This document shows positions 48,494 through 62,204 of a stretch of DNA of 64,000 nt, in pieces. The notes under the pieces were generated by a model, which ran no database searches, was not told the origin of the DNA, and worked only from the letters and a program-made list of their open reading frames with translations. The translations under genes were made by a program, and so were the position numbers. Origin of the DNA: Catellatospora vulcania. GTDB lineage: Bacteria > Actinomycetota > Actinomycetes > Mycobacteriales > Micromonosporaceae. The stretch spans positions 62,001 to 126,000 of the forward strand of contig NZ_ML769308.1 in assembly GCF_009720385.1 (NCBI RefSeq). Direction: 5' to 3'. Position 1 is the first letter of the stretch, and the number at the start of each line of letters is the position of its first letter.

Positions 48494-49624
48494 GTGGCAA
48501 ACGACACCTATTCCGCGACCGCTCCTTCCTTTACCCCGACCGCGGGCCCGGGGCCGGTAGACCACGCCGTTGACCTGCACCACCATGTCGAGCAGGCGCT
48601 CAGCGACTTCGTGCTCGCGGAGACGGCAGCGCTGCTTGACGTCGACCACGCCCTCGAACCGCTGCTCGCCGCGGCCCGCGATGCGGTGCTCGGCGGCGGC
48701 AAGCGCATCCGGCCGCTGTTCGCCTACTGGGGCTGGCGCAGCATGGCCGGCCCGGATGCGCCGGTGCGGCAGGTGCTGCCGGCCCTCGCCGCGCTGGAGC
48801 TGCTGCACGCGTTCGCCCTGGTCCACGACGATGTGATGGACCGCTCCGCGACCCGCCGCGGCCGCCCCACCGCGCACCGGGCGCTCGCCGCGGCCCACGC
48901 CGGGCAGCGGCTGCGCGGCGATGCCGAGCGGTTCGGCGACTCCGGCGCGATCCTGGTCGGCGACCTGTGCCTGGTCTGGGCCGACCGGCTGATGGGGCGG
49001 GCGAAGGTGCACGCGGCGGCGCTGGCGGGGGCGCGGGCCGCGTACGACCGGATGCGGGTCGAGGCCATCGCCGGGCAGTTCCTGGACGTGCTCGGCGACC
49101 ACGCGCGCAGCTGGTCGCCGGAGCGGGCGCTGCGCACCGCCCGGCTCAAGACCGCCGGCTACACCGCCACCTGGCCGCTGCACTTCGGCGCGGCGCTGGC
49201 CGGGGCCACCGGCACCACGTTCGCCCGCGGGCCCCTGGGCCGCGCCTACACCCGCTACGGGCTGGCCGTCGGCGAGGCGTTCCAACTGCGCGACGACCTG
49301 CTCGGCCTGTACGGCGAACCCGCCGTCACCGGCAAGCCGGTCGGCGACGACCTCGGCAAGCCGACCATGCTCCTGCTGCTGGCCCGCGCCCGGTCCACCG
49401 CCGCCCAGCACGCCGAGCTGGATAAACTGCTGGCCGCCGAGCAGCCCGACGTCGCCCGGCTGGGCGAGGTGGTCCGCGCGACCGGGGCCGCGGAGCAGCT
49501 CGGCGACATGATCACCGAGCGGGTGGCCGACGCGCGGGACGCGCTCGCCGACGCGCCCGTCGACCCGTCCGTCCGCGCCGCGCTCGGCGAGCTCGCCGCC
49601 GCGGTGGCCTGGCGCGCGGCATGA
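48494..49624 (+). CDS. crtE: Geranylgeranyl diphosphate synthase
   Basis: A 376-residue polyprenyl synthetase from GTG 48494, with no clear ribosome site. The first Asp-rich motif is ALVHDDVMDRSATRRGRP (about residue 113). The second is LRDDLLGLYGE, DDxxG in place of DDxxD, which occurs in bacterial members. GGGKRIRPLFAYWGW is the diphosphate-binding start. It makes the C20 precursor for CrtB and starts the crtE-crtI-merR operon. Confidence 0.9.
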   Translation: MANDTYSATAPSFTPTAGPGPVDHAVDLHHHVEQALSDFVLAETAALLDVDHALEPLLAAARDAVLGGGKRIRPLFAYWGWRSMAGPDAPVRQVLPALAALELLHAFALVHDDVMDRSATRRGRPTAHRALAAAHAGQRLRGDAERFGDSGAILVGDLCLVWADRLMGRAKVHAAALAGARAAYDRMRVEAIAGQFLDVLGDHARSWSPERALRTARLKTAGYTATWPLHFGAALAGATGTTFARGPLGRAYTRYGLAVGEAFQLRDDLLGLYGEPAVTGKPVGDDLGKPTMLLLLARARSTAAQHAELDKLLAAEQPDVARLGEVVRATGAAEQLGDMITERVADARDALADAPVDPSVRAALGELAAAVAWRAA

Positions 49625-49641
49625 CCGGAAGGAGCGCACGC

Positions 49642-51114
49642 ATGCGGACGGTTCCCGGACGCACCGACCATGTGGTCGTGGTGGGGGCAGGGCTGGGCGG
49701 GCTGGCGTGCGCGCTGCACCTGGCCGGCGCCGGCCGCCAGGTGACCGTGCTGGAGCGCGAGGACGTGCCGGGCGGACGGGCCGGGCGGCTGGACCGCGAC
49801 GGGTACACCTTCGACACCGGCCCGACCGTGCTGACCATGCCCGAGCTGATCGCCGAGGGCTTCGCCGCGGTGGGTGAGGACATGGCCGACTGGCTCACCC
49901 TCGACCCGCTCGATCCGGCGTACCGGGCCTGGTTCCCGGACGGATCGAAGCTCGACGTCATCGCCGACCCGGAGCGGATGGCCGTCGAGATCGCCCAGGT
50001 CTGCGGGCCGCGCGAGGCCGACGGCTACCGGCGCTTCGTCGACTACGCCCGCCGCCTGTGGGAGCTGGAGCGCCACGACTTCATCGAGCGCAACTTCGAC
50101 AGCCCGCGCGACCTGCTCACCGCCAACCTGCTGCGGCTGGTCGCGGCGGGCGCGTTCGGGCGGCTGCAGAACCGCATCGACACCTTCCTGAAGGACGAGC
50201 GGACCCGGCGGGTCTTCTCGTTCCAGGCGATGTACGCGGGCCTGTCCCCGCACAAGGCCCTCGCGGTGTACACCGTCATCGCCTACCTCGACTCCGTCGC
50301 CGGGGTGTACTTTCCGCGCGGCGGCATGCACGCGCTGCCCACGGCCATGGCCGCGGCAGCGGAGAAACACGGTGTGCGCTTCCGCTACGGCACCCAGGCG
50401 CTGCGCGTGGAGAGCAGCGGCGGCCGGGCCACCGCGGTGATCACCACGGCGGGCGAGCGCATCCCCGCCGACGCGGTCGTGCTCAACCCCGACACCGCCG
50501 CCGCGCACGCGCTGCTGCCCGGCTCGCACCCGCGCAAGCTGCGCTACTCGCCGTCGTGCGTGGTGCTGCACGTCGGCTCCGACGCCGCCTACTCACAGGC
50601 GGGACACCACAACATCCACTTCGGACGGCAGTGGCGGCGCACCTTCGACGAGGTGATCACCAGGGGGGAGCTGATGAGCGACCCGTCGCTGCTGGTCACC
50701 AACCCCAGCCGGACCGACCCGTCGGTCGCCCCGGCCGGGCGGCACACCTACTACGTGCTCGCGCCGGTGCCGAACCTGGTCGCCGGTGACCAGGACTGGC
50801 GCGGCGGGCTGGCCGACCGGTACGCCGACGAGCTGATCGACGTCCTCGAAGCGCGCGGCTACACCGGTTTCAAGGCGGGCGTGCAGACCCGGACCGTGAT
50901 CACCCCGGCCGACTGGTCGGACCTGGGCATGGACGCGGGCACCCCGTTCGCGGCCGCGCACACGCTCACCCAGTCGGGCCCGTTCCGGCCCCGCAACCTG
51001 CACCCGGCGCTGTCCAACGTGGTCTTCACCGGCTCGGGCACCACCCCGGGCGTCGGCGTGCCGATGGTGCTGATCTCGGGCAAGCTCGCCGCCGCCCGCA
51101 TCACCGGCGGCTGA
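49642..51114 (+). CDS. crtI: Phytoene desaturase
   Basis: 490 residues from ATG 49642, which has a GGAAGGAG site; an ATGA-coupled start at 49621 adds 7 residues. The FAD-binding motif is VVVVGAGLGGLACALHLAGAG, then VLEREDVPGGRAGRL; the C-terminal signature is GSGTTPGVGVPMVLISGK. It introduces double bases of unsaturation into phytoene to give lycopene. It is co-transcribed with crtE and the photoreceptor gene. Confidence 0.95.
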   Translation: MRTVPGRTDHVVVVGAGLGGLACALHLAGAGRQVTVLEREDVPGGRAGRLDRDGYTFDTGPTVLTMPELIAEGFAAVGEDMADWLTLDPLDPAYRAWFPDGSKLDVIADPERMAVEIAQVCGPREADGYRRFVDYARRLWELERHDFIERNFDSPRDLLTANLLRLVAAGAFGRLQNRIDTFLKDERTRRVFSFQAMYAGLSPHKALAVYTVIAYLDSVAGVYFPRGGMHALPTAMAAAAEKHGVRFRYGTQALRVESSGGRATAVITTAGERIPADAVVLNPDTAAAHALLPGSHPRKLRYSPSCVVLHVGSDAAYSQAGHHNIHFGRQWRRTFDEVITRGELMSDPSLLVTNPSRTDPSVAPAGRHTYYVLAPVPNLVAGDQDWRGGLADRYADELIDVLEARGYTGFKAGVQTRTVITPADWSDLGMDAGTPFAAAHTLTQSGPFRPRNLHPALSNVVFTGSGTTPGVGVPMVLISGKLAAARITGG

Positions 51115-51141
51115 CATGACCCGCGCCACGGGGGAGCGGCC

Positions 51142-51216
51142 ATGAGCGAGCGCGGCGTGCGGGTCAAAACGACCGCGACCCATGCCGGAGCCGAGCGAAG
51201 CGGGGTGAAGGCGTGA
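51142..51216 (+). CDS. Possible 24-residue leader ORF before the photoreceptor gene
   Basis: ATG 51142 has a GGGGGAG site and its frame ends in TGA within the GTGA start of the MerR gene, so its translation could feed into that gene. The peptide (MSERGVRVKTTATHAGAERS and a few more residues) has no known family. It may be only a ribosome-loading device or chance. Confidence 0.25.
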   Translation: MSERGVRVKTTATHAGAERSGVKA

Positions 51217-52091
51217 GCGAGTCCGGCCGCAGTGTCGGGGACGTGGCCCGGTGGCTCGGCGTCGCGGTCACCACGCTGCGCACCTGGCACCAGCGGTACG
51301 GGCTGGGCCCGAGCGAGCACGTCGCGCACCGGCACCGCCGGTACACCACCGACGACGTGGCCCGGCTGGAGGTCATGTGCCGGCTGACCACCGAAGGCGT
51401 GCCGGCCCACGAGGCGGCCCGGATCGCGCTGGCCGGGCTCCCCGGCGAACCCGCCGCGGCCCGCCTCGCCCCGGTCGCCGACCCGTCGGCGCGTGGGCTC
51501 ACCGTGGCCGCGGTGCGCCTGGACATGCCCGCGATGCTGTCGACCATCGCCTCGGCGGTGCGCGGCCGCGGCGTCGTCTACGCCTGGGACCACCTGCTGT
51601 GCCCCGTACTGGTCGAGGTGGCCCGGCGGCAGCAGCCGGACCATCACATGATCGAGGTGGAGCACCTGCTGTCGCGCTGCATCCTGGAGGTGCTGTGGAC
51701 GGTGCCCCGCCCCTTCGGCGCGGCCAGCGCCCGCACCCTGCTGGCCTGCTCCGCCGACGAGCAGCACACCCTGCCCCTGGAGGCGTTGGCCGCCGCCCTG
51801 GCCGAACAGGGCTGCGGCAGCCGCATGCTCGGCGCCCGTGTGCCGCCCCTGGCCCTCGCCGACGCGGTGCGCCGCACCGGTCCGTCGGCCGTCTTCGTCT
51901 GGTCCCAGTTCGCCCAGACCGGCACCCCGTCCCAGCTCGAACCGGTGCTCGCCGTCCGCCCGCGCCCGGCCCTGATCGCCGCCGCCGGCCCCGGCTGGGG
52001 TGACCCGCTGCCCGCAGGTGTGTACCGACCGGCCGACCTGACCGACGCCCTCCGCATGGCCCTACCAGTCACCAGCCGACGCGACCGCTGA
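51213..52091 (+). CDS. CarH/LitR-like MerR regulator with B12-binding domain
   Basis: A 292-residue protein. Residues 5-75 are a MerR helix-turn-helix (VGDVARWLGVAVTTLRTWHQ). Residues 95-165 form the helical bundle that caps B12, with VYAWDHLL and the Glu-His pair in EVEHLLSRCILEV at the places of the light-sensing Trp and Glu/His of CarH. The Rossmann part has CSADEQHTLPLEALA, which keeps the cobalt-ligand His of the ExH motif. CarH proteins repress crt genes in the dark and fall apart in light. The gene shares the crtE operon and the direct repeats at 48446 are its probable target. Confidence 0.85.
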   Translation: MSESGRSVGDVARWLGVAVTTLRTWHQRYGLGPSEHVAHRHRRYTTDDVARLEVMCRLTTEGVPAHEAARIALAGLPGEPAAARLAPVADPSARGLTVAAVRLDMPAMLSTIASAVRGRGVVYAWDHLLCPVLVEVARRQQPDHHMIEVEHLLSRCILEVLWTVPRPFGAASARTLLACSADEQHTLPLEALAAALAEQGCGSRMLGARVPPLALADAVRRTGPSAVFVWSQFAQTGTPSQLEPVLAVRPRPALIAAAGPGWGDPLPAGVYRPADLTDALRMALPVTSRRDR

Positions 52092-52213: not shown

Positions 52214-52957
52214 TCAGTGGTCGCGGAGGAGGGAGCCGGCGCCGTGGACCTTGTCGTCGATGCCGTTGTCGCGTAATGCCATCCACCAGGTCGCGGCGTT
52301 GATGGCGATGACGGGTTTGCCGAGCCAGCGCTCGGCCTCGTCGGCCAGGCGCACCATGGACAGGTTGGTGCCGCACTGCACGATCGCGTCGACGTCCGGC
52401 CCGTCGACCTTGCGGATCGCGTCGCGCAGCTCGTCCTCGGTGACGTGCGCGATGGCCACGGCAGTCGGGCACTTCAGGCCCTCGATCGCGGTGACCTCGA
52501 ACCCGATCTCGCTGAAGAACTTGACCACGTTCTGGTCGCCGACCGGCTGGTACGGCGTGACCACGCCGATGCGGCGCGCCCCGTAGATCTTCAGCGCCCG
52601 CTCGCAGGCCTCGGCCCCCGTGGCGACCTCCAGCCCGGTGATCGCCTTGATCTGGCGGACGAATTCGCGGTTGCCCTCGACGCCGCCCCAGAACGTCTCC
52701 GCCGACATGCCCATGACCATGTAGTCGGGTTCGCAGGTCAGCACCCGTTCGCAGGCCGAGCCGATCTCGTCGCGGATCTGCGTGAGCAGGTGCTCGAAGT
52801 TCGCGTCGTCGGACAGGTCCTGGTTGCGGATGTGGATGCGGGAGAAGTGCGCGGTCACCCCGGGCACCGTCATCGAGTAGAAGTCCGGTTCGACGATGGT
52901 GTTCGTGGACGGCGCGATGACCCCGAACTTGCGCCGCCAGCCGAGAGCGTCGGTCAT
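52214..52957 (-). CDS. Maleate isomerase / arylmalonate decarboxylase-like enzyme
   Basis: A 247-residue Asp/Glu-racemase-superfamily protein. FGVIAPSTNTIVEPDFY opens the fold. The first catalytic position is GMSAETF, with Ser in place of the Cys of maleate isomerases. The second keeps its Cys in IVQCGTNLSM. One-Cys members include arylmalonate decarboxylase, so decarboxylation or isomerisation of a diacid are both possible. It is the last gene of the operon, coupled by ATGA to the membrane-protein gene. Confidence 0.8.
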   Translation of the reverse strand: MTDALGWRRKFGVIAPSTNTIVEPDFYSMTVPGVTAHFSRIHIRNQDLSDDANFEHLLTQIRDEIGSACERVLTCEPDYMVMGMSAETFWGGVEGNREFVRQIKAITGLEVATGAEACERALKIYGARRIGVVTPYQPVGDQNVVKFFSEIGFEVTAIEGLKCPTAVAIAHVTEDELRDAIRKVDGPDVDAIVQCGTNLSMVRLADEAERWLGKPVIAINAATWWMALRDNGIDDKVHGAGSLLRDH

Positions 52958-53616
52958 GCGGGCACCTCCACCGGGCGGGCCGCGGCGACCTTCGCCGCGC
53001 GGACGGTGAGCAGGGCGGCGGTCAGGAAGACGGCCTGGGCGAGGGTGTTGGCGCCCTGCTCCAGCCACTGGAAGGCGACGGTGTCGTGCTGCGGGTGGCT
53101 GCGCAGCGGCACCAGCGAGGTGACGGCCACGACCCCGAGCGCGTACAGCACGACCGCGCCCCAGGCTCGGCGGCGTCCGGCCAGCACCGCGCCGAGCACG
53201 CTGATCGCGGTGACGCCGGTGGTGGCCGCGATGAACGCCGGCTGCACGCTGGTCAGCGCGACCGCGGCCCCGGCGATCCCCACACCCACCAGGGCGTACG
53301 GCCACCACGGCGCGCGCCGCCCGCGCAGGGTCGTGTGCAGCGACCACAGCACCAGCAGCGCGCCGGTCGCCATCAGCGGGAACAGCGACTGCTCCAGCCA
53401 GCGCAGGTCGGTGCCGAACGCGGACAGGATGAGCTTCCAGGTGGACTTCGCCACCCCGCCCAGGCCGATGAGCACCGCCCCGAACCGGCCGGCGAAGGCG
53501 GCCCGCCGGTCAATCGCGGCGGACGCCCCGCCGAGCAGCCAGAACCCGGCCAGCGCCAGCAGCGTGGGGACGTAGTCCTCCAGCGCCATGATCACCGGGT
53601 AGTCGTTGGTGTTCAC
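52954..53616 (-). CDS. Membrane protein of the tetrapyrrole-type operon, unknown
   Basis: A 220-residue protein with six hydrophobic helices (VPTLLALAGFWLLGGASAA, LFPLMATGALLVLWSL, WPYALVGVGIAGAAVALTS and others). It starts at GTG 53616, overlapping the SDR stop. I do not recognise the family. Tight coupling suggests a role in uptake, export or sensing of the pathway's substrate. Confidence 0.6.
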   Translation of the reverse strand: MNTNDYPVIMALEDYVPTLLALAGFWLLGGASAAIDRRAAFAGRFGAVLIGLGGVAKSTWKLILSAFGTDLRWLEQSLFPLMATGALLVLWSLHTTLRGRRAPWWPYALVGVGIAGAAVALTSVQPAFIAATTGVTAISVLGAVLAGRRRAWGAVVLYALGVVAVTSLVPLRSHPQHDTVAFQWLEQGANTLAQAVFLTAALLTVRAAKVAAARPVEVPA

Positions 53617-54389
53617 GCGTCCTCCCCGAACACGTCACGCTTGCGGAACGCGGTCAGGAACCGCCAGAACGCCTTGCCCCGGGTCAGCCACGCCACCCGG
53701 CCCCCGTTCGGGGCTCCGGCCAGCACCTTTTCGGCCAGCCACGGCGTGACGGTCTCCACCCGGTCCGCCAGGATGTTGAAGATCTTCTTGGCCTGTGCCA
53801 GTTCGTCCGGGGTGTAGTCGTGTGTGAGCAGGTCGGTGACGACCATGCCGGGGGACAGGTGGTGCACGGTCACCCCGGTGCCGTCCACCTCCTTGGCGAG
53901 GCTGTCCGTGGTGTAGGTGACGGCCCGCTTGGTCGCGCCGTACACGGTCAGCCCGGGGCGGAGCATGCCGTTGGAGCCGAAGCCCTCCATGTTCCACAGC
54001 GCGCCCGCGCCCTGCGCGGCCATTCCGGCCAGCACGACGGCACTGGCGTGCAGCAGGCCGCGCAGGTTCAGGTCCACCGTGGCGTCCAGCGCCGCGGGGT
54101 CCAGCTCCCAGAGCTTGCGGCGGGCCGGGGACATGCCCGCGTTGTTGATCCAGATGTCGACGTGCCCGTGCCGCTCCACGGCCGCGTCCCACAGGCGCTG
54201 CACCGCCTCCCGGTCGGTGACGTCGGCGACCACGCCGTACGCCGAGGGCGCCTGCTCGCCGGCCCGTTTGACCGAGTCGACCGACCGTCCGCAGTAGACG
54301 ACCTGTGCGCCGCGTGCGGCCAGCTCCCGGACGAGGCCCAGGCCGATGCCGCGCGTGCCGCCGGTGACCACCACGACCTTGCCGGTCAT
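53613..54389 (-). CDS. SDR resembling chlorophyll b reductase (NYC1/NOL type)
   Basis: 258 residues, ATGA-coupled to the gene before. The cofactor loop is VVVVTGGTRGIGLGL, then DIWINNAG (about 78-85), the catalytic Tyr150 and Lys154 in VYGATKRAV, and VHHLSPGMVVTDLL. From recall of the plant NYC1/NOL sequences, WINNAG, the N(M/I)(E/D)G(F/A)GS(N/D)G strand replacing the usual ISS, YGATKR and LSPGMV.TDLL are all shared. In plants this enzyme reduces the 7-formyl group of chlorophyll b. The match is by eye, and the real substrate here is not known. Confidence 0.75.
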   Translation of the reverse strand: MTGKVVVVTGGTRGIGLGLVRELAARGAQVVYCGRSVDSVKRAGEQAPSAYGVVADVTDREAVQRLWDAAVERHGHVDIWINNAGMSPARRKLWELDPAALDATVDLNLRGLLHASAVVLAGMAAQGAGALWNMEGFGSNGMLRPGLTVYGATKRAVTYTTDSLAKEVDGTGVTVHHLSPGMVVTDLLTHDYTPDELAQAKKIFNILADRVETVTPWLAEKVLAGAPNGGRVAWLTRGKAFWRFLTAFRKRDVFGEDA

Positions 54390-55336
54390 GCGCCGTCCTC
54401 CCATTCCAGCAGGCCGTGCAGGACGCCGTCGAGCACGTTGCCGTCGAAGATCTCGTAGACGACGGCGAGGCGCTTGCCGGCGGACATGCCGGGTTCGGCG
54501 TCGATCATGAATTCGCGGTACTTCAGCTTGGTCACGTCGGTGAAGTGCAGTGAGCCGAACGCGGCGCGGCCGAAGGTGACCGCGTTGCCCCAGGCGTCCG
54601 GGCCCTCGTGGAACAGCCGGTTGCCGTCGCGCCGGGCGGTGGCCGTGGCGCTGCGGTCCAGGGCGCCGGACCAGGTCAGGGTGCGACGGGTGTGCAGCAG
54701 GTCGAGCGGTTCGAGGCTGATGCGCACGTCGACGGCGCCGCGCGGCTTCTGGTCGGCGCCCCAGAGTTCGCAGCTGCCCGCGTACGCGCCGGACTGCTTG
54801 GTGGGCATGATGAACGGGACCGGGCCGCGGCGCGTCTCGGCGGCCAGGAAGTCGGTGACCCGGGCCTGGGTGGCGGGGTTGTCGTCGTGGTCGGTGCTGC
54901 GGGTGTAGACGCCGTTGAAGCAGCCGACCACCGACCAGCCCTGGTAGAGCACGGACGAGTACACCTGGGTCTGCCCGTCGGGCAGGATCTGGTTCCAGGT
55001 GTTCAGGTCGACCTGCCAGCCGGGGCCGTAGTAGTGCGAGTCCACGAACGAGCCGTAGGGCTGCCCGGTGCCGTAGAAGTCCGGGCCGGTGTACACCCGG
55101 TCGTCGTCGGCGTCCTTGACCCCGAACGCGAACGGCGCGCCGAGCCGGAACTGCCCGGCCAGCGGCCCGCCCCCGGTCAGCCCGCCGTCCATGTAGTACG
55201 TGGTCACGCCGTTCTCGAAGACCGACGAGCGCCGGATGTCCTCGTACCCGCACCACGTCCCGGTGGCGTCGAACAGCGACGGCCGGCCGTGCCACTCGCC
55301 GGTGATGCGCTTCTGCCACTCGCTGGGCTCAGCCAT
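54386..55336 (-). CDS. Uncharacterised beta-rich protein of the tetrapyrrole-type operon
   Basis: A 316-residue soluble protein with no signal peptide, coupled on both sides (8-bp and 4-bp overlaps). It is rich in Gly, Trp and Tyr, with GEWHGRPSLFDATGTWCGYED near the N-terminus split here as GEWHG then FDATGTW, and VYTGPDFYGTGQPYGSFVDS and DSHYYGPGWQVDLNTWNQ later. The GxW-like start recalls lipocalin/calycin folds such as bilin-binding CpcS/CpcT proteins, but this is a guess. I do not recognise the family. It lies between the SDR and an RCCR-like gene, so a tetrapyrrole-binding role is plausible. Confidence 0.6.
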   Translation of the reverse strand: MAEPSEWQKRITGEWHGRPSLFDATGTWCGYEDIRRSSVFENGVTTYYMDGGLTGGGPLAGQFRLGAPFAFGVKDADDDRVYTGPDFYGTGQPYGSFVDSHYYGPGWQVDLNTWNQILPDGQTQVYSSVLYQGWSVVGCFNGVYTRSTDHDDNPATQARVTDFLAAETRRGPVPFIMPTKQSGAYAGSCELWGADQKPRGAVDVRISLEPLDLLHTRRTLTWSGALDRSATATARRDGNRLFHEGPDAWGNAVTFGRAAFGSLHFTDVTKLKYREFMIDAEPGMSAGKRLAVVYEIFDGNVLDGVLHGLLEWEDGA

Positions 55337-56042
55337 TGGCCACCAGCTCGGCCCGGATCGCGTCGGTGGTCTCGTCGCCGAGCAGCCGGGACACCTGCGC
55401 CCAGACCGGGTCGACGTCGCGGCTGAAGATGTTGGCGCGCACCGCCGCGTCCCGGGCGGCCAGGTCGACGCCCTCCGGGCTGGGCACACCCTTCTCGACC
55501 AGCGTCGACCAGTGGTCGGCGTACGCGTCGACGTGCGCGTCGATGCCCGCGAACGCCTCCTCGGTGGCCCGGTTGACCAGCATCCACGGCGACATGATGG
55601 CGCGCTGGCGCGGGCCGATCGCGGCGGGGGACAGGCCCTCGGTCGTCGAGGCGGCCTCGAACACCGGGGTCAGCGGGTGGAAGGCCGCGTCCAGGTAGGG
55701 CAGGTTCGCGGCCAGGTCGGCGCGGGGGATCAGGTCGAGGTGGAAGGCGTGGTACGAGCCGCCGTACACCGAGTCGAGGGTGAAGTGGGGGACGGCCGAG
55801 TCCTCGGGCGTGAACGCGAAGATCATGTGGCTGTCCAGGTGGATCATCGGGACCACCAGGCCGACGTACACGACCTTGGCCACGGCCGCGCCGCGGAAGA
55901 TCCGCACCGAGCCGACCGGAGCCGGAGACATCGGGCTGGTCAGCTCGGCCAGCGGCGTCTCCTGCGCGACCAGGTCCGGGTGGCGGGCGAGGATACGTTG
56001 CAGGGTGCGCTCGCACAGGTCGGCGGGCAGGCTCACGGTCAC
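55329..56042 (-). CDS. Red chlorophyll catabolite reductase / bilin reductase-like protein 1
   Basis: 237 residues from GTG 56042, overlapping the Rieske stop by four bases. The core VPHFTLDSVYGGSYHAFHLD then LIPRADLAANLPYL (about 84-117) follows the plant RCCR pattern APHF(acidic)...LDL.PRKDL...P.YL. The C-terminal AARDAAVRANIFSRD and LLGDETTDAIRAEL match the ERRD.SFRR...FGEE...A.KE end of RCCR. Asp90 sits where the plant enzyme, as I recall it, has a substrate-binding Glu. Family members reduce open-chain tetrapyrroles with ferredoxin. Confidence 0.7.
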   Translation of the reverse strand: MTVSLPADLCERTLQRILARHPDLVAQETPLAELTSPMSPAPVGSVRIFRGAAVAKVVYVGLVVPMIHLDSHMIFAFTPEDSAVPHFTLDSVYGGSYHAFHLDLIPRADLAANLPYLDAAFHPLTPVFEAASTTEGLSPAAIGPRQRAIMSPWMLVNRATEEAFAGIDAHVDAYADHWSTLVEKGVPSPEGVDLAARDAAVRANIFSRDVDPVWAQVSRLLGDETTDAIRAELVANG

Positions 56043-57241
56043 TCCTCAGGGGTGGAATCGGACTCGGCCGCGGCGGCCGCGTCCCAGGCGGCCTGCACGG
56101 TCGGGTGCTCGCCCCGGGCCTTGTGCACCCAGGCGCGGGCCAGCTCGGGGTTCTCCCGGCGGGCCGGGGACGCGATCACGGTCGCGGTGCGCCGCGGCAC
56201 GTCGCCGGTGATGCTGTCCTCCTCGGACAGCAGCCAGCCCTTCTCGGCCAGCTCCTGCCGGCGGCGGCGGTAGTGCACCGCGATCAGGTCGCTCTTGATG
56301 TGCAGCTCCGCGCCCAGGTCGAAGGGCAGCAGCTCGGGCCGCACCTTGTTCACGACCTCCGCGTCCTCGTAGAAGATCTTCAAGGTGCGGTTGATCGCGT
56401 TCTTGTCGGCCCACTTGCCGGTGAAGAAGGTGCGCAGCGCCACCCACTTGACCAGCGTGGTCGTCTCGTCGATCGGGATGTTGGTGTCGTAGATGATCAG
56501 CTCGCCGATCGGCAGCCGCACGTGCAGCTTGATCATGTTGGGCAGCATCCAGCCGGCCGAGGTGCGCACCGGCGGGCGGTTGCTCAGGTCGCCCTTGTTG
56601 CGGTTCAGCGCCGCCCAGATGCCCTTCGGCCGCGGCGGGTACAGGTCCACCGTCGCGAACGCCGACCACTCGTCCGGAGTCTCCAGCTCGTACTCGGCGA
56701 CCTCCGGCCGCTCCGGGTTGCCGAAAGCCCCCGCGTGCACGAACGGCGCGTGCGCGATGTCGCAGCCGTTCTCCAGGATGCGCTCGTAGTTGGCCTTCCA
56801 GAGGAACTCGCCGGTCACCGCCCGGAAGCGGCCGCCGTTCTCCTTCAGGTCGTCGAACTCCGGCCACACCGGGATCGGCGGGCGCTCGGACTCCGGCAGG
56901 TCGCCCATGAAGACCCAGACGAAGCCGTACCTCTCCTGCACCGGGTACGAGTCGACGCGGGCCTTCTTGGGGATGCCCCGGCCCGGCAGGTTCGCCGGGA
57001 TCTTCGTGACCTGGCCTTCGGCGTCGTACTCCCAGCCGTGGTACGGGCAGACCAGGCAGCCGTCCTTGGTCCAGCCGCCCGACAGCGCAGCCCCGCGGTG
57101 CACGCACAGGTCGGACAGCGCCACCGGGCGGCCCTTCGGGGTGCGGTAGAGGGCCAGGTGCTGGCCGAGCACGGTGACCCGGGCCGGCTTGGTGGTGACC
57201 CGGTCGGCGAACTCGACCGCGTACCAGAAGTTCTTCAACAT
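56039..57241 (-). CDS. Rieske non-haem iron oxygenase, PaO/VanA type
   Basis: A 400-residue oxygenase with a GGAGGTAAG site. The Rieske 2Fe-2S ligands are Cys46-x-His48 in CVHRGAAL and Cys65-x2-His68 in CLVCPYHGWEYD. The mononuclear iron site is Asn158, Asp161, His164 and His169 in LENGCDIAHAPFVHAG. It belongs to the group that includes pheophorbide a oxygenase and vanillate demethylase. It lacks the C-terminal CxxC of plant PaO. With two RCCR-like neighbours, opening of a chlorin or porphyrin ring is the most attractive role; an aromatic substrate is the alternative. No reductase gene is nearby. Confidence 0.85.
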   Translation of the reverse strand: MLKNFWYAVEFADRVTTKPARVTVLGQHLALYRTPKGRPVALSDLCVHRGAALSGGWTKDGCLVCPYHGWEYDAEGQVTKIPANLPGRGIPKKARVDSYPVQERYGFVWVFMGDLPESERPPIPVWPEFDDLKENGGRFRAVTGEFLWKANYERILENGCDIAHAPFVHAGAFGNPERPEVAEYELETPDEWSAFATVDLYPPRPKGIWAALNRNKGDLSNRPPVRTSAGWMLPNMIKLHVRLPIGELIIYDTNIPIDETTTLVKWVALRTFFTGKWADKNAINRTLKIFYEDAEVVNKVRPELLPFDLGAELHIKSDLIAVHYRRRRQELAEKGWLLSEEDSITGDVPRRTATVIASPARRENPELARAWVHKARGEHPTVQAAWDAAAAAESDSTPEE

Positions 57242-57244
57242 GGC

Positions 57245-58213
57245 TTACCTCCGCTGGATCGACGCGACGCCGCCGTGATCGGCGAGTTTGTCCCATTCGG
57301 TATACGACGCCTGGTCGCCGGTCAGATGCATCCGGCAGAACGTGCCGAGCAGGTCGGCCAGCAGTTCGCGGTGCGCGGCCGGGTCGCCGTCGGCGGGCTG
57401 GTCGAGGAACGCCCGTGCGGCGGTGTGGTCGACCGGGTGCACGATCGCGAAGTGGTTCGCCCCGGCGAGCCGTACCAGCGCGTTGTCGCCGCCCCGGTCG
57501 GGCAGCGCCTCGTCGAAGGTGCGGGTGATCGGGTCGCGGCGGGTGGCCGCGTCCTCGCCGTAGCGGTCCGCCGAGCCGTTGATGACGCCGTCGTTGGTGC
57601 CCGCGACCAGCAGCACCGGGCAGTCGGCCTGGGCCGGCAGCACGGTGCCCGCGGGCCAGCCCAGCATGGTGGCGACCATGGTGTGCGCCCCGTACGTCGC
57701 CACCGCCTTGACCTCGGGCACGAACCGCGCGGACTGGAGCGCGACGGTGCCGCCCGCGGAGTGTCCGATCAGGGCGACCCGGTTCAGGTCGAGCAGCCCG
57801 GCGACCGGCCCGGTCATCGCGGCGAGGGCGTCGAGCACCGGGCGCAGCGACGGCGTGGTGGGCCGTTTGCCGTAGCCGTCGGGCCGGGCCGCGTCGAGGT
57901 CCACACCCGGCGTGATGCCGTGCAGGCCGCCGAACAGCGTGCCGACCCAGTCGTAGGTCACCGCGACGACGCCCTGCTCGGCCAGCCGCTCGGCCAGCCA
58001 GCGGTACGCCTCCTGGCCCACGTTGACCCCGGACACGATCACGGCCACCGGGTACGGGGCGCCCGCCGGGTCGGCGGCCATCACGCCGGACAGCCGCTCG
58101 CGGTCCGAGCCGTCCGGCAGGGCCGGGTAGTAGACGCGCAGGTGGGCTGTGTCGAACGGCGGCTCGTGGCCCGGGATGGTCGCGGCCCACCAGACAGAAC
58201 GGATCACCGTCAC
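57245..58213 (-). CDS. Alpha/beta hydrolase, chlorophyllase-like
   Basis: 322 residues from GTG 58213, overlapping the RCCR-like 2 stop by four bases. It has a long N-terminal beta region (HLRVYYPALPDG; PYPVAVIVSG), the nucleophile elbow LIGHSAGGTVALQS (about 190-200), the acid in LLVAGTNDGV and a late His in AGANHFAIVHP. Layout and lid-less start resemble chlorophyllases and PET/lipase-type hydrolases. In this operon it could remove phytol or a methyl ester from a chlorophyll derivative, an inference from context. Confidence 0.75.
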   Translation of the reverse strand: MTVIRSVWWAATIPGHEPPFDTAHLRVYYPALPDGSDRERLSGVMAADPAGAPYPVAVIVSGVNVGQEAYRWLAERLAEQGVVAVTYDWVGTLFGGLHGITPGVDLDAARPDGYGKRPTTPSLRPVLDALAAMTGPVAGLLDLNRVALIGHSAGGTVALQSARFVPEVKAVATYGAHTMVATMLGWPAGTVLPAQADCPVLLVAGTNDGVINGSADRYGEDAATRRDPITRTFDEALPDRGGDNALVRLAGANHFAIVHPVDHTAARAFLDQPADGDPAAHRELLADLLGTFCRMHLTGDQASYTEWDKLADHGGVASIQRR

Positions 58214-59010
58214 GGCCGGGCCAGCTTCCGGTCGCCGCCCCACAGGCCGCGGACCAGCTTGTCCGTGGTCTCCTGGCCGAAGAAGCGCACACCCATCACG
58301 TTGGCCGGGTCGCGCTCGGCGATGTTGCGCCGCATGCGCAGGTCCGTCTCGGCCAGCGCGGCCCGCTCGTCCTCCGGCACCGGCGGGGCCTCGTCGACCC
58401 AGCGCAACCAGCGGTCCACGTGCTCATGCGTCAGCTTGCGCACGATGTCGATGTTGCGCTCGCTCCTGCCGAACGAGTAGCAGTACGCCGTCGGGCTCAG
58501 GCTGGCCCGGATGAAGCCGGCCCGGCTGACGAAGTACTCGAACTCGGGGTCGGCGCGGTGGGCCAGCCAGTCGGCGTCGAGCGGGGCGTAGTAGCTGTCG
58601 TAGTACTCGCCGTCGGCGATCAGGTTCACCCGGGGCACGGAGTCGAGGTAGAACCAGCCCTCCGGCCACACCAGCAGGGCCAGGCCCAGGTGCGGCACCT
58701 TGACCTGCGGGCCCAGCCACACGGTCAGGTGCAGGTTGGCGAAGCTCGCCGACGGGTTGCCCAGCCAGGAGTGCACCATCCAGTCGACCTCGGGTCCGCT
58801 GTACGCGGCCAGCGAGCCGCCGGGCCCGTCCGGGTACTGCCCGTACGACTCCAGCTCCAGGGTCGACGGGTCACGCTGCAGCTCGAACCGGGCGTCGATC
58901 TTCGCCTTCAGTTCGGCCAGCAGCTCCTGGTACAGGTGGAACGTCTCGTGCACGTCGACGGCGGGGGAGTTGTCCACCATGTCCTCGACGTGCCGCAGGG
59001 TCTCGGCCAC
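58210..59010 (-). CDS. Red chlorophyll catabolite reductase-like protein 2
   Basis: 266 residues from GTG 59010. It follows plant RCCR along almost its whole length: DWMVHSWLG (IDFVIGSWIH in Arabidopsis ACD2 as I recall), VPHLGLALLVWPEGWFYLDS (APNF..ELI.SS..SLVLILD), the VPRVNLIADGEYYDSYY segment (.HRKDLVLNPDYLKEYY), IRASLSPTAYCYSF (FVRSAFSPTA) and ETDLRMRRNIAERDP with VRFFGQETTDKLVRGLWG at the end. The acidic residue of the third block is Ala111 here, unlike paralogue 1. Ferredoxin-dependent reduction of a ring-opened tetrapyrrole is the family reaction. Confidence 0.8.
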   Translation of the reverse strand: MAETLRHVEDMVDNSPAVDVHETFHLYQELLAELKAKIDARFELQRDPSTLELESYGQYPDGPGGSLAAYSGPEVDWMVHSWLGNPSASFANLHLTVWLGPQVKVPHLGLALLVWPEGWFYLDSVPRVNLIADGEYYDSYYAPLDADWLAHRADPEFEYFVSRAGFIRASLSPTAYCYSFGRSERNIDIVRKLTHEHVDRWLRWVDEAPPVPEDERAALAETDLRMRRNIAERDPANVMGVRFFGQETTDKLVRGLWGGDRKLARP

Positions 59011-59017
59011 GGGCGGT

Positions 59018-60670
59018 CTACCTTTCTGTGAGGGCTTGCACGAGCCGCCAGGGGCGGCCGTCGACGAGGTCCGTCTGCCGGGACACCTGCCGGTTGGCGG
59101 CCTGTGCCGGAGCGACGTCAGCCCGCCCGGACACCTGTCCGGCGGGCACGGTGGTGACGACCGGGTGACTGATCCGCCCCGTGAAGGGCCCCTGCCAAGC
59201 GGTCCACAACGTGAAGTCGGGCGACAGCGCGAACACCGCGCTGTCCTGGTCGAGCGGTGCGACGGCGACGACGTTGAGCCGGTTCTCCGCCGCCCGCTCG
59301 GGCAACCCGAGACTCAGTTCCCACTGCTCCGCAGCCTCGAACGGCACCGCCACCACATCGGCATCAGCCAGCGCCGCCAACCGGAACACCTCGGGAAAGA
59401 TCGAGTCCGCCCCCGCGACCATGGCCAACCGTCCCCACGGCAGCTGCACCACACACACTCCGCCCTCACGGGGACGATCTTGCGTGGACTGTGGGGACGA
59501 CACGGGTGTTTCCGGCGAATGGGCAACCGTTCGCGCAAGATCGTCGTGATCAAGGGGGTGGAGGACGGGTTGGCGGGCTACTTCGCCGTTGGCGTCGACG
59601 AGGATCGGGCCGGTGGGGGTGGCTGTCACGGCGTGGGCGCTGGTGCCGTCGAGGGCGGCGGCGAGCAGGGTGGGGTCGGTTTCGGTGGTGACGATGAGGC
59701 GGGCGCCTGCGGCGGCGGCGCGGGCGGTTTCGCGGACCACCGTGGCGGTGTCGCCGCGGACCACTGCGACGGGCAGGGTGGCCGCGCCGGATCCGTGGCG
59801 GCGGCCGTGCGGTGGGGCGGCGATGGGGGCGTACAGCTCGGGTCGGCGGGCGGCGAAGATGTCGGTGCCGTCGGGGCGGCGCTTGTCGTCGGCGAGCGAC
59901 GGGTCGATGTCGGCGATCACGACGGCCTCGCCGGTGCGCGGCCCCTTGGCGACGACGGTGCCGTCGGGGGCGACGATCTGGCTCTCTCCTGCCCCGTGCA
60001 GCCATTCCGCGGGTACGCCGAGCGCCGCGCTGAGCCGCGGGAGGTGCTCCTCGGGCAGCAGCGGGCCGACCTTGTTGGCGGCGACGACCCATACCTTGTT
60101 CTCGGCCGCGCGGACCGGGATGTGCAGGCTCGCCTCGTCGGTGGCGAACGAGTTGAGGCTGTTCAGCAGCACCTGCGCGCCGCGCAGGGCGAGCCCGCGG
60201 GCCACCTCGTTGATGACGCCCTCCATGCAGGCGTACATGCCCAACCGGCCGAGCGGGGTGTCGAGCACCGGCCCGACCTCGCCGGCCGGGTCGAGGTGGT
60301 CGTTCTCGGCGCCCATCAGGGTCTGCTTGTCGCACTGGCCGAGCACCGCGCCGTCCGGCCCGAACATGAAGTTGGTGCCGCCGGTGCGGCCGTCGGGGTG
60401 CGCGTGCGTGACGTTGATCTTCACGTACGCCCGGTGCTTGCGGGCGCGCTCGGCGACGGCGGTCAGGAACGGGTCGCCGGGCCGGGTGGCGATGCGGTGC
60501 GCGTGCGCCCGGTCGGCGTAGTAGGACAGGTGGTTGCAGAACTCGGGCGCGACGATCAGCTGCGCGCCCTGGGCCGCGGCCTCGTCGATCAGGCGCAGGC
60601 AGGCGGCGAGATTGGCCTCGACGTCTTCCGACGCCGCGAGCTGCACCGCGGCAACCCGTACTGGAGCCAT
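59018..60670 (-). CDS. Tandem nitrilase-fold amidase, second domain degenerate
   Basis: A 550-residue protein and first gene of the operon. Domain 1 (1-290) is complete: Glu43 in APEFCNH, Lys115 in CDKQTL and Cys148 in YACMEGV. Domain 2 (about 300-520) has a nitrilase-like layout, but its Lys is not visible and the Cys position reads VAGADSIFPE. Between domain-2 strands, about residues 376-400, lies a translated palindromic element rich in Ser, Pro and Asp. The N-terminal enzyme probably hydrolyses an amide or N-carbamoyl group; domain 2 may be structural. Confidence 0.8.
   Translation of the reverse strand: MAPVRVAAVQLAASEDVEANLAACLRLIDEAAAQGAQLIVAPEFCNHLSYYADRAHAHRIATRPGDPFLTAVAERARKHRAYVKINVTHAHPDGRTGGTNFMFGPDGAVLGQCDKQTLMGAENDHLDPAGEVGPVLDTPLGRLGMYACMEGVINEVARGLALRGAQVLLNSLNSFATDEASLHIPVRAAENKVWVVAANKVGPLLPEEHLPRLSAALGVPAEWLHGAGESQIVAPDGTVVAKGPRTGEAVVIADIDPSLADDKRRPDGTDIFAARRPELYAPIAAPPHGRRHGSGAATLPVAVVRGDTATVVRETARAAAAGARLIVTTETDPTLLAAALDGTSAHAVTATPTGPILVDANGEVARQPVLHPLDHDDLARTVAHSPETPVSSPQSTQDRPREGGVCVVQLPWGRLAMVAGADSIFPEVFRLAALADADVVAVPFEAAEQWELSLGLPERAAENRLNVVAVAPLDQDSAVFALSPDFTLWTAWQGPFTGRISHPVVTTVPAGQVSGRADVAPAQAANRQVSRQTDLVDGRPWRLVQALTER
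59473..59545. repeat. Palindromic element, family C, inside a coding sequence
   Basis: A perfect 12-bp stem GACGATCTTGCG (59473-59484 with 59534-59545), with further imperfect pairing inside, encloses about 49 bp. It is read in frame in the second nitrilase domain. Confidence 0.7.
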
Positions 60671-60713: not shown

Positions 60714-60758
60714 TACACTCGCGGGGGCGTTTACAACAGGGGTCGACCGGAGGTCGTG

Positions 60759-61040
60759 ATGCTTTCTCACGTAGTGCTGATGACGTTCACCGACGCAGAC
60801 GATGCTGCCAAGGCGAAGGATCTTTTGGAAGGGCTGGTCGGGGTGGTTCCCCAGGTCCGAACGCTCCAGGCGCACCTGGACGAGCTGCACACCCCGGTCT
60901 CGGCGCACCTGTGCCTGATCACGACCCACGAGGACGAGGCCGACCTGCGCGGATACCAGGAACACCCGGCGCACCTGGAGTTGGCGCAGTGGCTGCGCCC
61001 GCGGCTGGCGGCCCGGGTGGTAGTCGACTTCAGCCGGTGA
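60759..61040 (+). CDS. Dabb-family (stress-responsive A/B barrel) protein
   Basis: A 93-residue dimeric alpha-beta barrel protein; ATG 60759 is better spaced from GGAGGT than GTG 60756. It begins LSHVVLMTFTDADDAAKAKD and has LCLITTHEDEADLRGYQEHP, typical of Dabb. Its exact role is unknown; related barrels bind haem or small aromatics. It shares the CGAAAC promoter with the tetrapyrrole-type operon, so it probably belongs to the same response. Confidence 0.85.
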   Translation: MLSHVVLMTFTDADDAAKAKDLLEGLVGVVPQVRTLQAHLDELHTPVSAHLCLITTHEDEADLRGYQEHPAHLELAQWLRPRLAARVVVDFSR

Positions 61041-61721: not shown

Positions 61722-62204
61722 ATGACAGTTCACCTGGCACGACGTCCCGCGGCTCAGTGGTGGGCGCTCGCGGGCTTCCTCGCGGCGGTGCTCGTGGCGG
61801 CGGTGGTCGGCGGGCTGGCCGTGGCGCAACCCGCCGACGACTACGCGGCCCTGGCCCGGCCCGGCTGGGCGCCGCCGTCCTGGCTGTTCGGGCCGGTCTG
61901 GACGGTGCTCTACGCGATGATCGCGGTCTCGGGCTGGCTGGTCTGGCGACGGGCCGGCTGGGGTCCGGCGCTGTGGGCGTACGCCGCGCAGCTCGTCCTC
62001 AACGCGATCTGGACGCCGCTGTTCTTCGGCGCCGGTCTGCGCGGCCTCGCGTTCGCCGACATCGTGCTGCTGTGGCTGGCCATCGGCGTCACCGTGCTGC
62101 TGTTCCGCCGGATCTCGGCCGTGGCGGCCTGGCTGCTGGCGCCCTACTGGCTCTGGGTCACCTTCGCCTCCGCCCTCAACTTCACCATCTGGCACCTCAA
62201 CTAG
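61722..62204 (+). CDS. tspO: TspO/MBR family membrane protein
   Basis: A 160-residue protein with five helices. Family signatures are PPSWLFGPVWTVLYAMIAVSG, QLVLNAIWTPLFFGAG and LLAPYWLWVTFASALNFTIW (in segments of up to 20). TspO binds porphyrins such as protoporphyrin IX and, in some bacteria, promotes their light-dependent degradation. Shared promoter motifs tie it to the operon at 52.2-60.7 kb, which strengthens a tetrapyrrole theme for both. Confidence 0.95.
   Translation: MTVHLARRPAAQWWALAGFLAAVLVAAVVGGLAVAQPADDYAALARPGWAPPSWLFGPVWTVLYAMIAVSGWLVWRRAGWGPALWAYAAQLVLNAIWTPLFFGAGLRGLAFADIVLLWLAIGVTVLLFRRISAVAAWLLAPYWLWVTFASALNFTIWHLN

Follow-up and report, generated by a model that had tools for sequence, protein, structure and literature searches.

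A 64,000-nucleotide stretch of the Catellatospora vulcania genome (C14:62001-126000, contig NZ_ML769308.1 of an 8.83-Mb draft; hereafter the window) carries, on the minus strand between positions 60670 and 52214, nine co-directional open reading frames (g1 to g9) that encode, among other enzymes, a Rieske oxygenase and two proteins related to red chlorophyll catabolite reductase (RCCR). Comparison of these sequences with profiles, structures and other genomes leads us to propose that the operon forms a conserved module of actinobacteria with a likely catabolic role, in which the RCCR pair is predicted to carry out the reduction of a linear, probably chlorophyll-derived tetrapyrrole, while linked genes would degrade the product to central metabolites. 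We give this reading about an even chance of being right.

As the first-pass annotation of the window had described, the nine genes are tightly packed, with neighbors either overlapping or separated by at most 7 bases. Gaps occur at two junctions only (7 bases between g1 and g2, 3 bases between g3 and g4); the remaining six junctions are overlaps of 4 to 8 bases, provided that g3 starts at the GTG at 58213. Should g3 start at 58243, its overlap with g2 would be 34 bases.

The product of g2 (RCCR1; 58210-59010, 266 amino acids), 99% identical to its Catellatospora methionotrophica counterpart, scores 55.3 bits against PF06405 (E 7.3e-15; cut-off 24.9), and a profile built from 20 of its relatives retrieved plant RCCR (3agb, 2zxk) as the top PDB matches, with E values of 5.5e-16 to 7e-16. 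On these comparisons g2 clearly ranks as a bona fide RCCR-family protein. The product of g5 (RCCR2; 55329-56042, 237 amino acids) is a divergent paralogue of RCCR1: the g5 and g2 profiles align with an hhalign E value of 2.9e-15 and a probability of 98.5, and a 58-row tree without outgroup separates the RCCR1 and RCCR2 groups by a 100/100 branch. The placement of g5 in the family formed by RCCR and the ferredoxin-dependent bilin reductases (FDBRs) rests on this paralogy. The earlier claim of two RCCR-like proteins, which a position outside the RCCR/FDBR family would have refuted, withstands that test for g2 on its PF06405 and PDB matches and for g5 through paralogy. Characterized enzymes of the RCCR/FDBR family are known to act on linear tetrapyrroles.

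Residue conservation, here and below, was scored in alignments from which rows of odd length and rows of less than 45% identity had been removed. Two acidic positions were followed in the RCCR pair, Glu154 and Asp291, whose roles come from the Arabidopsis RCCR structures, with the F218V variant used to fix the numbering; a literature search gave no confirming passage. The Asp291 position corresponds to Asp234 in 83 of 83 RCCR1 rows and to Asp211 in 81 of 81 RCCR2 rows (HMMER pairs Asp234 with Asp291; MAFFT shifts the register by one or two columns). The Glu154 column, unchanged across two joint alignments, holds Asp90 in all 81 RCCR2 rows and Ala111 in 82 of 83 RCCR1 rows, the last having Thr. 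Since RCCR2 keeps both acids and RCCR1 only one, the pattern suggests divided roles for the two proteins.

The same searches bear on a different choice of substrate. The g2 profile also matched a plastid ferredoxin bilin reductase (6qwq, E 7.2e-9) and, weakly, phytochromobilin synthase (E 0.052), and g2 itself scores 19.3 bits against PF05996 (Fe_bilin_red), below the cut-off of 31; for RCCR2, phytochromobilin synthase (HY2) is the best PDB match, with an E value of 0.019. Such matches would fit a gene set devoted to the catabolism of haem-derived or phycobilin-type bilins (biliverdin, bilirubin, urobilins, phycobilins), with RCCR1 and RCCR2 acting as FDBRs and the Rieske enzyme cleaving or hydroxylating the bilin. 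The presence of a haem oxygenase in 21 of 29 cluster-bearing genomes, a count confined to such genomes, points the same way. However, none was found in the other eight, and where both positions are given (G406 is not comparable) the haem oxygenase gene is either on a different contig or some 900 kb from the cluster. RCCR1, moreover, scores higher as an RCCR than as any FDBR. We consider catabolism of such bilins quite unlikely, and hold chlorophyll to be a likelier source than haem because haem oxygenase was not found in those eight genomes.

The gene flanked by the RCCR pair, g4 (56039-57241, 400 amino acids), combines a Rieske domain (PF00355, E 9e-22) with a VanA_C domain (PF19112, E 3.4e-28), and all 78 of the 78 aligned rows retain its Rieske and non-haem iron ligands (C46-x-H48/C65-x2-H68; D161-x2-H164-x4-H169). 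Of its earlier assignment to a PaO/VanA group, the iron sites and the VanA side stand; the PaO side does not. The PaO domain PF08417 gave no match in g4 at E values up to 1 and none in the whole C. vulcania genome (two of 14 control genomes match, one above the cut-off). PaO carries a C-terminal CxxC motif, and the g4 translation has no Cys after residue 170. The identification of g4 as a PaO is thus not supported. Its closest PDB relatives are SxtDIOX/SxtT, NdmA and DdmC. It resembles oxygenases of the VanA/DdmC/NdmA/SxtT type in its Rieske and VanA_C domains and its complete set of iron ligands, and differs from them in standing within an RCCR operon.

Conservation of the operon was assessed in the best 80 of 139 confirmed loci. 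Genes g2-g4-g5-g6 follow each other in that order in 76 of these, spanning 16 genera (Paractinoplanes counted under Actinoplanes) of the Micromonosporaceae, Thermomonosporaceae, Streptosporangiaceae, Streptomycetaceae and Nocardiaceae. Four loci deviate: L038 and L046 have RCCR1 alone, L028 is rearranged and L073 has no g6. With g8 excluded, the other eight genes are collinear in 71 of 80 loci; the further exceptions comprise an inverted g1 (L034), two loci in which no g3 was found (L032, L036) and two at contig ends (L031, L060). Taken singly, g4 and g5 are each present in 78 loci, g6, g7 and g9 in 77, g1 and g3 in 76, and g8 in only 48. We judge a chance gene neighborhood to be unlikely. PF06405 is present in at least three of 396 genomes of the phylum and in at least 17 of 121 genomes of the family to which the window belongs, both being lower bounds (the search recovered 25 of 26 known carriers), and RCCR2 occurs in the same 17 family genomes as RCCR1.

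Two genomes from other families of the phylum, G252 (2.6 Mb) and G294 (3.5 Mb), retain g2-g4-g5-g6 at 40-51% identity, with g1 relatives (40-43% identical) near this core in both. In G252, the core is preceded by genes for CaiB, a cyclase, MmgE/PrpD, HyuB, HyuA, an isochorismatase-type amidase and a luciferase-like protein; HyuB and HyuA exceed the Pfam cut-offs for hydantoinase A/B, their best NCBIfam match being a caprolactamase below cut-off. One side of the G252 cluster has a g3 relative (46%), a cupin, an IclR gene and a branched-chain-amino-acid-type ABC transporter, and the other a nitrilase, HMGL, CaiB, an FAD monooxygenase, an acyl-CoA-dehydrogenase-type monooxygenase, an aldehyde dehydrogenase and a 74% identical g9. 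In G294, CitE, nitrilase, HMGL, CaiB, an arylmalonate decarboxylase (AMDase)-family gene and an FAD monooxygenase lie to one side of the core; in two further stretches of this genome, the only cluster gene to turn up was a relative of the acyl-CoA dehydrogenase at 28% identity. The stretches retrieved from the two genomes gave no hit to g7 or g8, and the g3 relative was found in G252 only, apart from the core.

Among the remaining genes of the operon, g1 (59018-60670, 550 amino acids) codes for a nitrilase-superfamily amidase (PF00795, E 5.4e-42) with a Glu43-Lys115-Cys148 triad kept in 75 of 75 aligned rows. The alpha/beta hydrolase g3 (57245-58243, or to 58213 with the alternative start) has a GHSAGG nucleophile motif, its Ser162 being present in 77 of 77 rows. 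The first-pass annotation had called it chlorophyllase-like. Against PF07224 (Chlorophyllase) it scores 13.6 bits, short of the cut-off of 26, and that identity was rejected; it passes PF12740 (PETase; 31.2 bits, cut-off 28), a family formerly named Chlorophyllase2, as well as PF12146 and PF01738. The g3 product is closer to polyesterases than to chlorophyllase, and resembles polyesterases/DLH. The short-chain dehydrogenase/reductase (SDR) g7 (53613-54389, 258 amino acids; PF00106, E 1.9e-41) does contain the WINNAG, YGATKR and LSPGMVVTDLL motifs noted earlier, and its Asn82, Tyr150 and Lys154 are found in 77 of 77 rows. As to its proposed likeness to NYC1/NOL, the closest models and structures are generic SDRs (FabG/17-beta-HSD-like in PDB), in results that included no NYC1/NOL model or sequence.

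The conserved protein g6 (54386-55336, 316 amino acids) is possibly lipocalin-like. Pfam and PDB searches returned no match for it; among 120 listed relatives, two are named lipocalin-like by their source and one tocopherol cyclase. Gene g8 (52954-53616, 220 amino acids) codes for what its sequence suggests is a small integral membrane protein, with no Pfam family over cut-off; a relative at L082:13624-14433 (minus strand), beside the upstream IclR gene, has its match at the place of g8 in 22 of 80 loci (mean identity 46%). Lastly, g9 (52214-52957, 247 amino acids) belongs to the AMDase/maleate isomerase family of the Asp/Glu racemase superfamily (PF17645, E 1.4e-22; in PDB it matches maleate isomerase 2xed best, with an E value of 3.4e-13). 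In the profile scans of the operon proteins, the g6 and g9 translations had two to three extra leading residues. Members of the isomerase/racemase type carry a first catalytic Cys; the residue of g9 nearest to this position is Ser85, in 78 of 78 rows, and the second Cys is kept as Cys195, also in 78 of 78. By alignment, the latter stands at the position of Cys188 of AMDase, and a single catalytic Cys fits an AMDase. Some Nocardia loci (e.g. L054 and L056-L059) have another AMDase-family paralogue a few kilobases past the operon, which in two Nocardia with wider flanks is near a cupin gene; G252 also has two such genes.

The operon does not stand alone. Upstream of g1, on the same contig, are genes for an aldehyde dehydrogenase, an FAD monooxygenase, a PEP-mutase/ICL-type protein, a second aldehyde dehydrogenase, an acyl-CoA-dehydrogenase-type monooxygenase, a flavin reductase and an IclR-like protein. 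Beyond the latter come modules containing a mesaconyl-CoA-hydratase-like MaoC, luciferase-like, CaiB, MmgE/PrpD, RidA-like and CitE genes, along with cyclase, dihydropyrimidinase-type, cupin, acyl-CoA synthetase and HMGL genes. In the C. vulcania genome itself, a CaiB-cyclase-MmgE/PrpD group sits beside a dihydropyrimidinase-type gene about 30 kb upstream of the operon. These linked amide/lactam hydrolase and CoA-catabolism modules had been missed by the first-pass annotation; they point to full degradation rather than a stop at phyllobilins.

Within flanks of up to 10 kb, relatives of the two aldehyde dehydrogenases occur in 70 and 70 of 80 loci (part of which may be cross-hits) and relatives of the FAD monooxygenase in 65. 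Wider flanks were examined in 15 of 26 carrier genomes, chosen mainly for long contigs; two of these flanks are short. Linkage was counted at 42% identity or more over half of the query, which leaves out HyuA and HyuB of G407 (39% and 31%). Names were given by eye to CaiB, IclR, thiolase-like, FNR, symporter and MaoC2/3 genes, and the gene caller used for the flanks was crude. On this basis, the IclR gene is near the operon in all 15 genomes, mem247 in 13, CaiB3 in 10 (the G399 case being probably a CaiB2 cross-hit), the cyclase in nine, CitE, the cupin, HMGL, dihydropyrimidinase, CaiB2 and MmgE2 in eight each, and PEP-mutase/ICL in six. The order of the modules varies. Thirteen of these 15 genomes also have, close to the operon and in most cases next to the IclR gene, a relative of a membrane protein encoded at L082:14756-15496 (minus strand) and assigned to no Pfam family.

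Co-occurrence across the family was scored for the dihydropyrimidinase-type gene, with at most 13 candidates per genome and matches listed at E values up to 1e-120. An orthologue (80% identity or more) is present in 16 of 17 RCCR-bearing genomes and in none of the 104 others of the family. In 13 of the 16 it shares a contig with RCCR1, at a distance of up to about 40 kb; in three it lies on other contigs of drafts. The counts ignore kinship, eight of the 17 RCCR-bearing genomes belonging to one genus.

The composition of this island also speaks to the idea that the operon makes or tailors a specialized metabolite instead of degrading a nutrient. The patchy distribution of the genes (3 of 396 and 17 of 121 genomes, as above) would suit such a function. 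However, the CoA-transferase, PrpD, CitE, HMGL and amidase genes are of degradative type, an IclR-like regulator accompanies the operon in every wide flank, and no polyketide synthase or nonribosomal peptide synthetase type figures among the annotated island genes, no search having been aimed at them. A specialized-metabolite cluster seems to us very improbable.

A divergent gene with a Dabb domain (60756-61040, plus strand; PF07876, E 1.7e-15) lies upstream of g1; 50 of 80 loci have a relative of it among their flanking genes. A TspO/MBR family gene is located at 61722-62204 (plus strand; PF03073, E 1.8e-43), with flank relatives in only four of 80 loci, all Catellatospora; the TspO/MBR family is known to bind tetrapyrroles. 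On the other side, at 49621-52091 (plus strand), are a CrtI-like FAD amine oxidoreductase gene and one for a MerR regulator (B12-binding match below cut-off), a pair that resembles light-controlled carotenoid clusters; the operon sits between this pair and the TspO gene.

Linear tetrapyrroles consist of four N-heterocycles, two of which, in bilins, are terminal lactams. The combination of RCCR-family proteins with amide, lactam and imide hydrolases and CoA-dependent dicarboxylate genes makes tetrapyrrole catabolism our preferred reading, in view also of two compounds known to arise from chlorophyll, hematinic acid and methylethylmaleimide, for which passages of a 2026 paper (PMC12860425) give a proposed origin via linear tetrapyrroles. 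Degradation of the pyrroles through maleimide- or maleate-type acids would be the best reading of the island genes. In such a scheme, g3 would hydrolyze an ester side chain and the Rieske enzyme g4 would oxygenate the macrocycle or chain, after which RCCR2 and RCCR1 would each perform one of a series of reductions, g6 perhaps serving as a carrier. Splitting and oxidation of the chain to monopyrroles or maleimides may then fall to the two-component monooxygenases, FAD monooxygenases and aldehyde dehydrogenases linked to the operon. These are products whose lactam, imide and amide bonds would be opened by the nitrilase g1 and the linked hydrolases of dihydropyrimidinase, cyclase, oxoprolinase or isochorismatase type. 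The resulting maleate-like acids would be isomerized or decarboxylated by g9, and CoA transferases and lyases of the MmgE/PrpD, CitE, HMGL and PEP-mutase/ICL types could yield C3-C4 units. That these steps add up to a complete bacterial route for mineralizing chlorophyll-derived or other linear tetrapyrroles, with the oxygenase and RCCR pair acting on the chain, flavin oxygenases releasing pyrroles, and hydrolases and CoA-dependent lyases feeding dialkylmaleates into central metabolism, is a possibility we advance tentatively and with some doubt.

Several observations weigh against tetrapyrrole catabolism. RCCR2 scores 14.4 bits against PF06405, below the cut-off of 24.9, and its profile retrieved phytochromobilin synthase and RCCR from PDB only at E values of 0.019-0.088; RCCR1 lacks the Glu154 equivalent. 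RCCR1 also occurs without the operon, within the stretch fetched, in two of 80 loci (Actinoplanes couchii and Nonomuraea corallina). The SDR g7 and the hydrolase g3 look generic, the Rieske enzyme is no PaO, and the haem oxygenases of 21 cluster-bearing genomes keep haem bilins among the candidate substrates. As to the island, the imide-hydrolase module (dihydropyrimidinase, CaiB2, MmgE2) lies near the operon in only eight of 15 wide-flank genomes, its dihydropyrimidinase and MmgE/PrpD proteins score below their NCBIfam cut-offs, and weaker dihydropyrimidinase relatives (48-61%) exist in four family genomes without RCCR. Finally, the type of ABC transporter that adjoins the G252 cluster is more usual for small substrates.

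This last point, like the change at Glu154 in RCCR1, could be accommodated by a pathway whose substrate is an N-heterocycle smaller than a tetrapyrrole, for example a lactam, an alkaloid or a mono- or dipyrrole such as a maleimide, to which proteins of the RCCR fold would have been newly recruited. The nearest PDB relatives of g4 are small-substrate enzymes, and an amidase paired with a member of the maleate isomerase family is also a feature of aerobic nicotinate degradation. Free monopyrroles are already found in senescent leaves, according to passages of PMC12860425. On the other hand, RCCR1 and RCCR2 go together (the same 17 of 121 genomes, 78 of 80 loci), and the many and varied CoA-transferase and lyase branches suggest several different ring products; the characterized RCCR/FDBR enzymes are known to use linear tetrapyrroles. 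We regard the small-heterocycle pathway as unlikely, though it deserves consideration beside the favored catabolism of tetrapyrroles.

The plant PAO/phyllobilin pathway employs NYC1/NOL, chlorophyllase or pheophytinase, PaO and RCCR, and plants store the phyllobilins. The operon is like it in having an RCCR-family reductase next to a Rieske oxygenase, along with an alpha/beta hydrolase and an SDR. It differs in that its Rieske enzyme is of VanA_C and not PaO type, it has two RCCR-like proteins where the plant has one, its SDR is generic, its hydrolase is not PF07224, and it is linked to genes for further degradation. What survives of the plant-like pathway first suggested is the RCCR pair flanking a Rieske enzyme, conserved in 16 genera and two distant genomes; the exact analogy, with its PaO and chlorophyllase identities, is rejected on the failed PF08417 and PF07224 tests. 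Closer to bacteria, passages of Rockwell et al. 2023 (PMC10151467) place Candidatus Schekmanbacteria sequences inside the RCCR outgroup and describe FDBR/pre-PcyA clusters of heterotrophic bacteria. These, too, are conserved clusters from bacteria that do not photosynthesize and encode members of the RCCR/FDBR superfamily; they differ in carrying genes for haem oxygenase and for Fe-S, V4R and globin (or B12-binding) proteins (PMC10151467, same passages); the strings 'Rieske' and 'actinobacteri' do not occur in the main text of that article. No described bacterial RCCR/Rieske operon or tetrapyrrole-mineralization cluster appeared among the matches listed from the open-licence literature. With aerobic nicotinate (nic) and other N-heterocycle clusters, the island shares amide hydrolases, a maleate isomerase/AMDase-family enzyme and flavin monooxygenases; unlike them, it has RCCR-family proteins and several CoA-transferase/lyase branches. 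RCCR-family proteins are not known in such clusters.

Chlorophyll is made and destroyed every year on a huge scale, and the plant route ends at phyllobilins. How maleimides form in sediments is not yet fully understood, as passages of the 2026 paper state (PMC12860425). If the favored reading is true, the island would assign genes to a late stage in the turnover of pigments, for which none are described in the literature found, and would make this stage testable in culturable actinobacteria. The RCCR1-Rieske-RCCR2-g6 block would provide a marker that can be counted in metagenomes.

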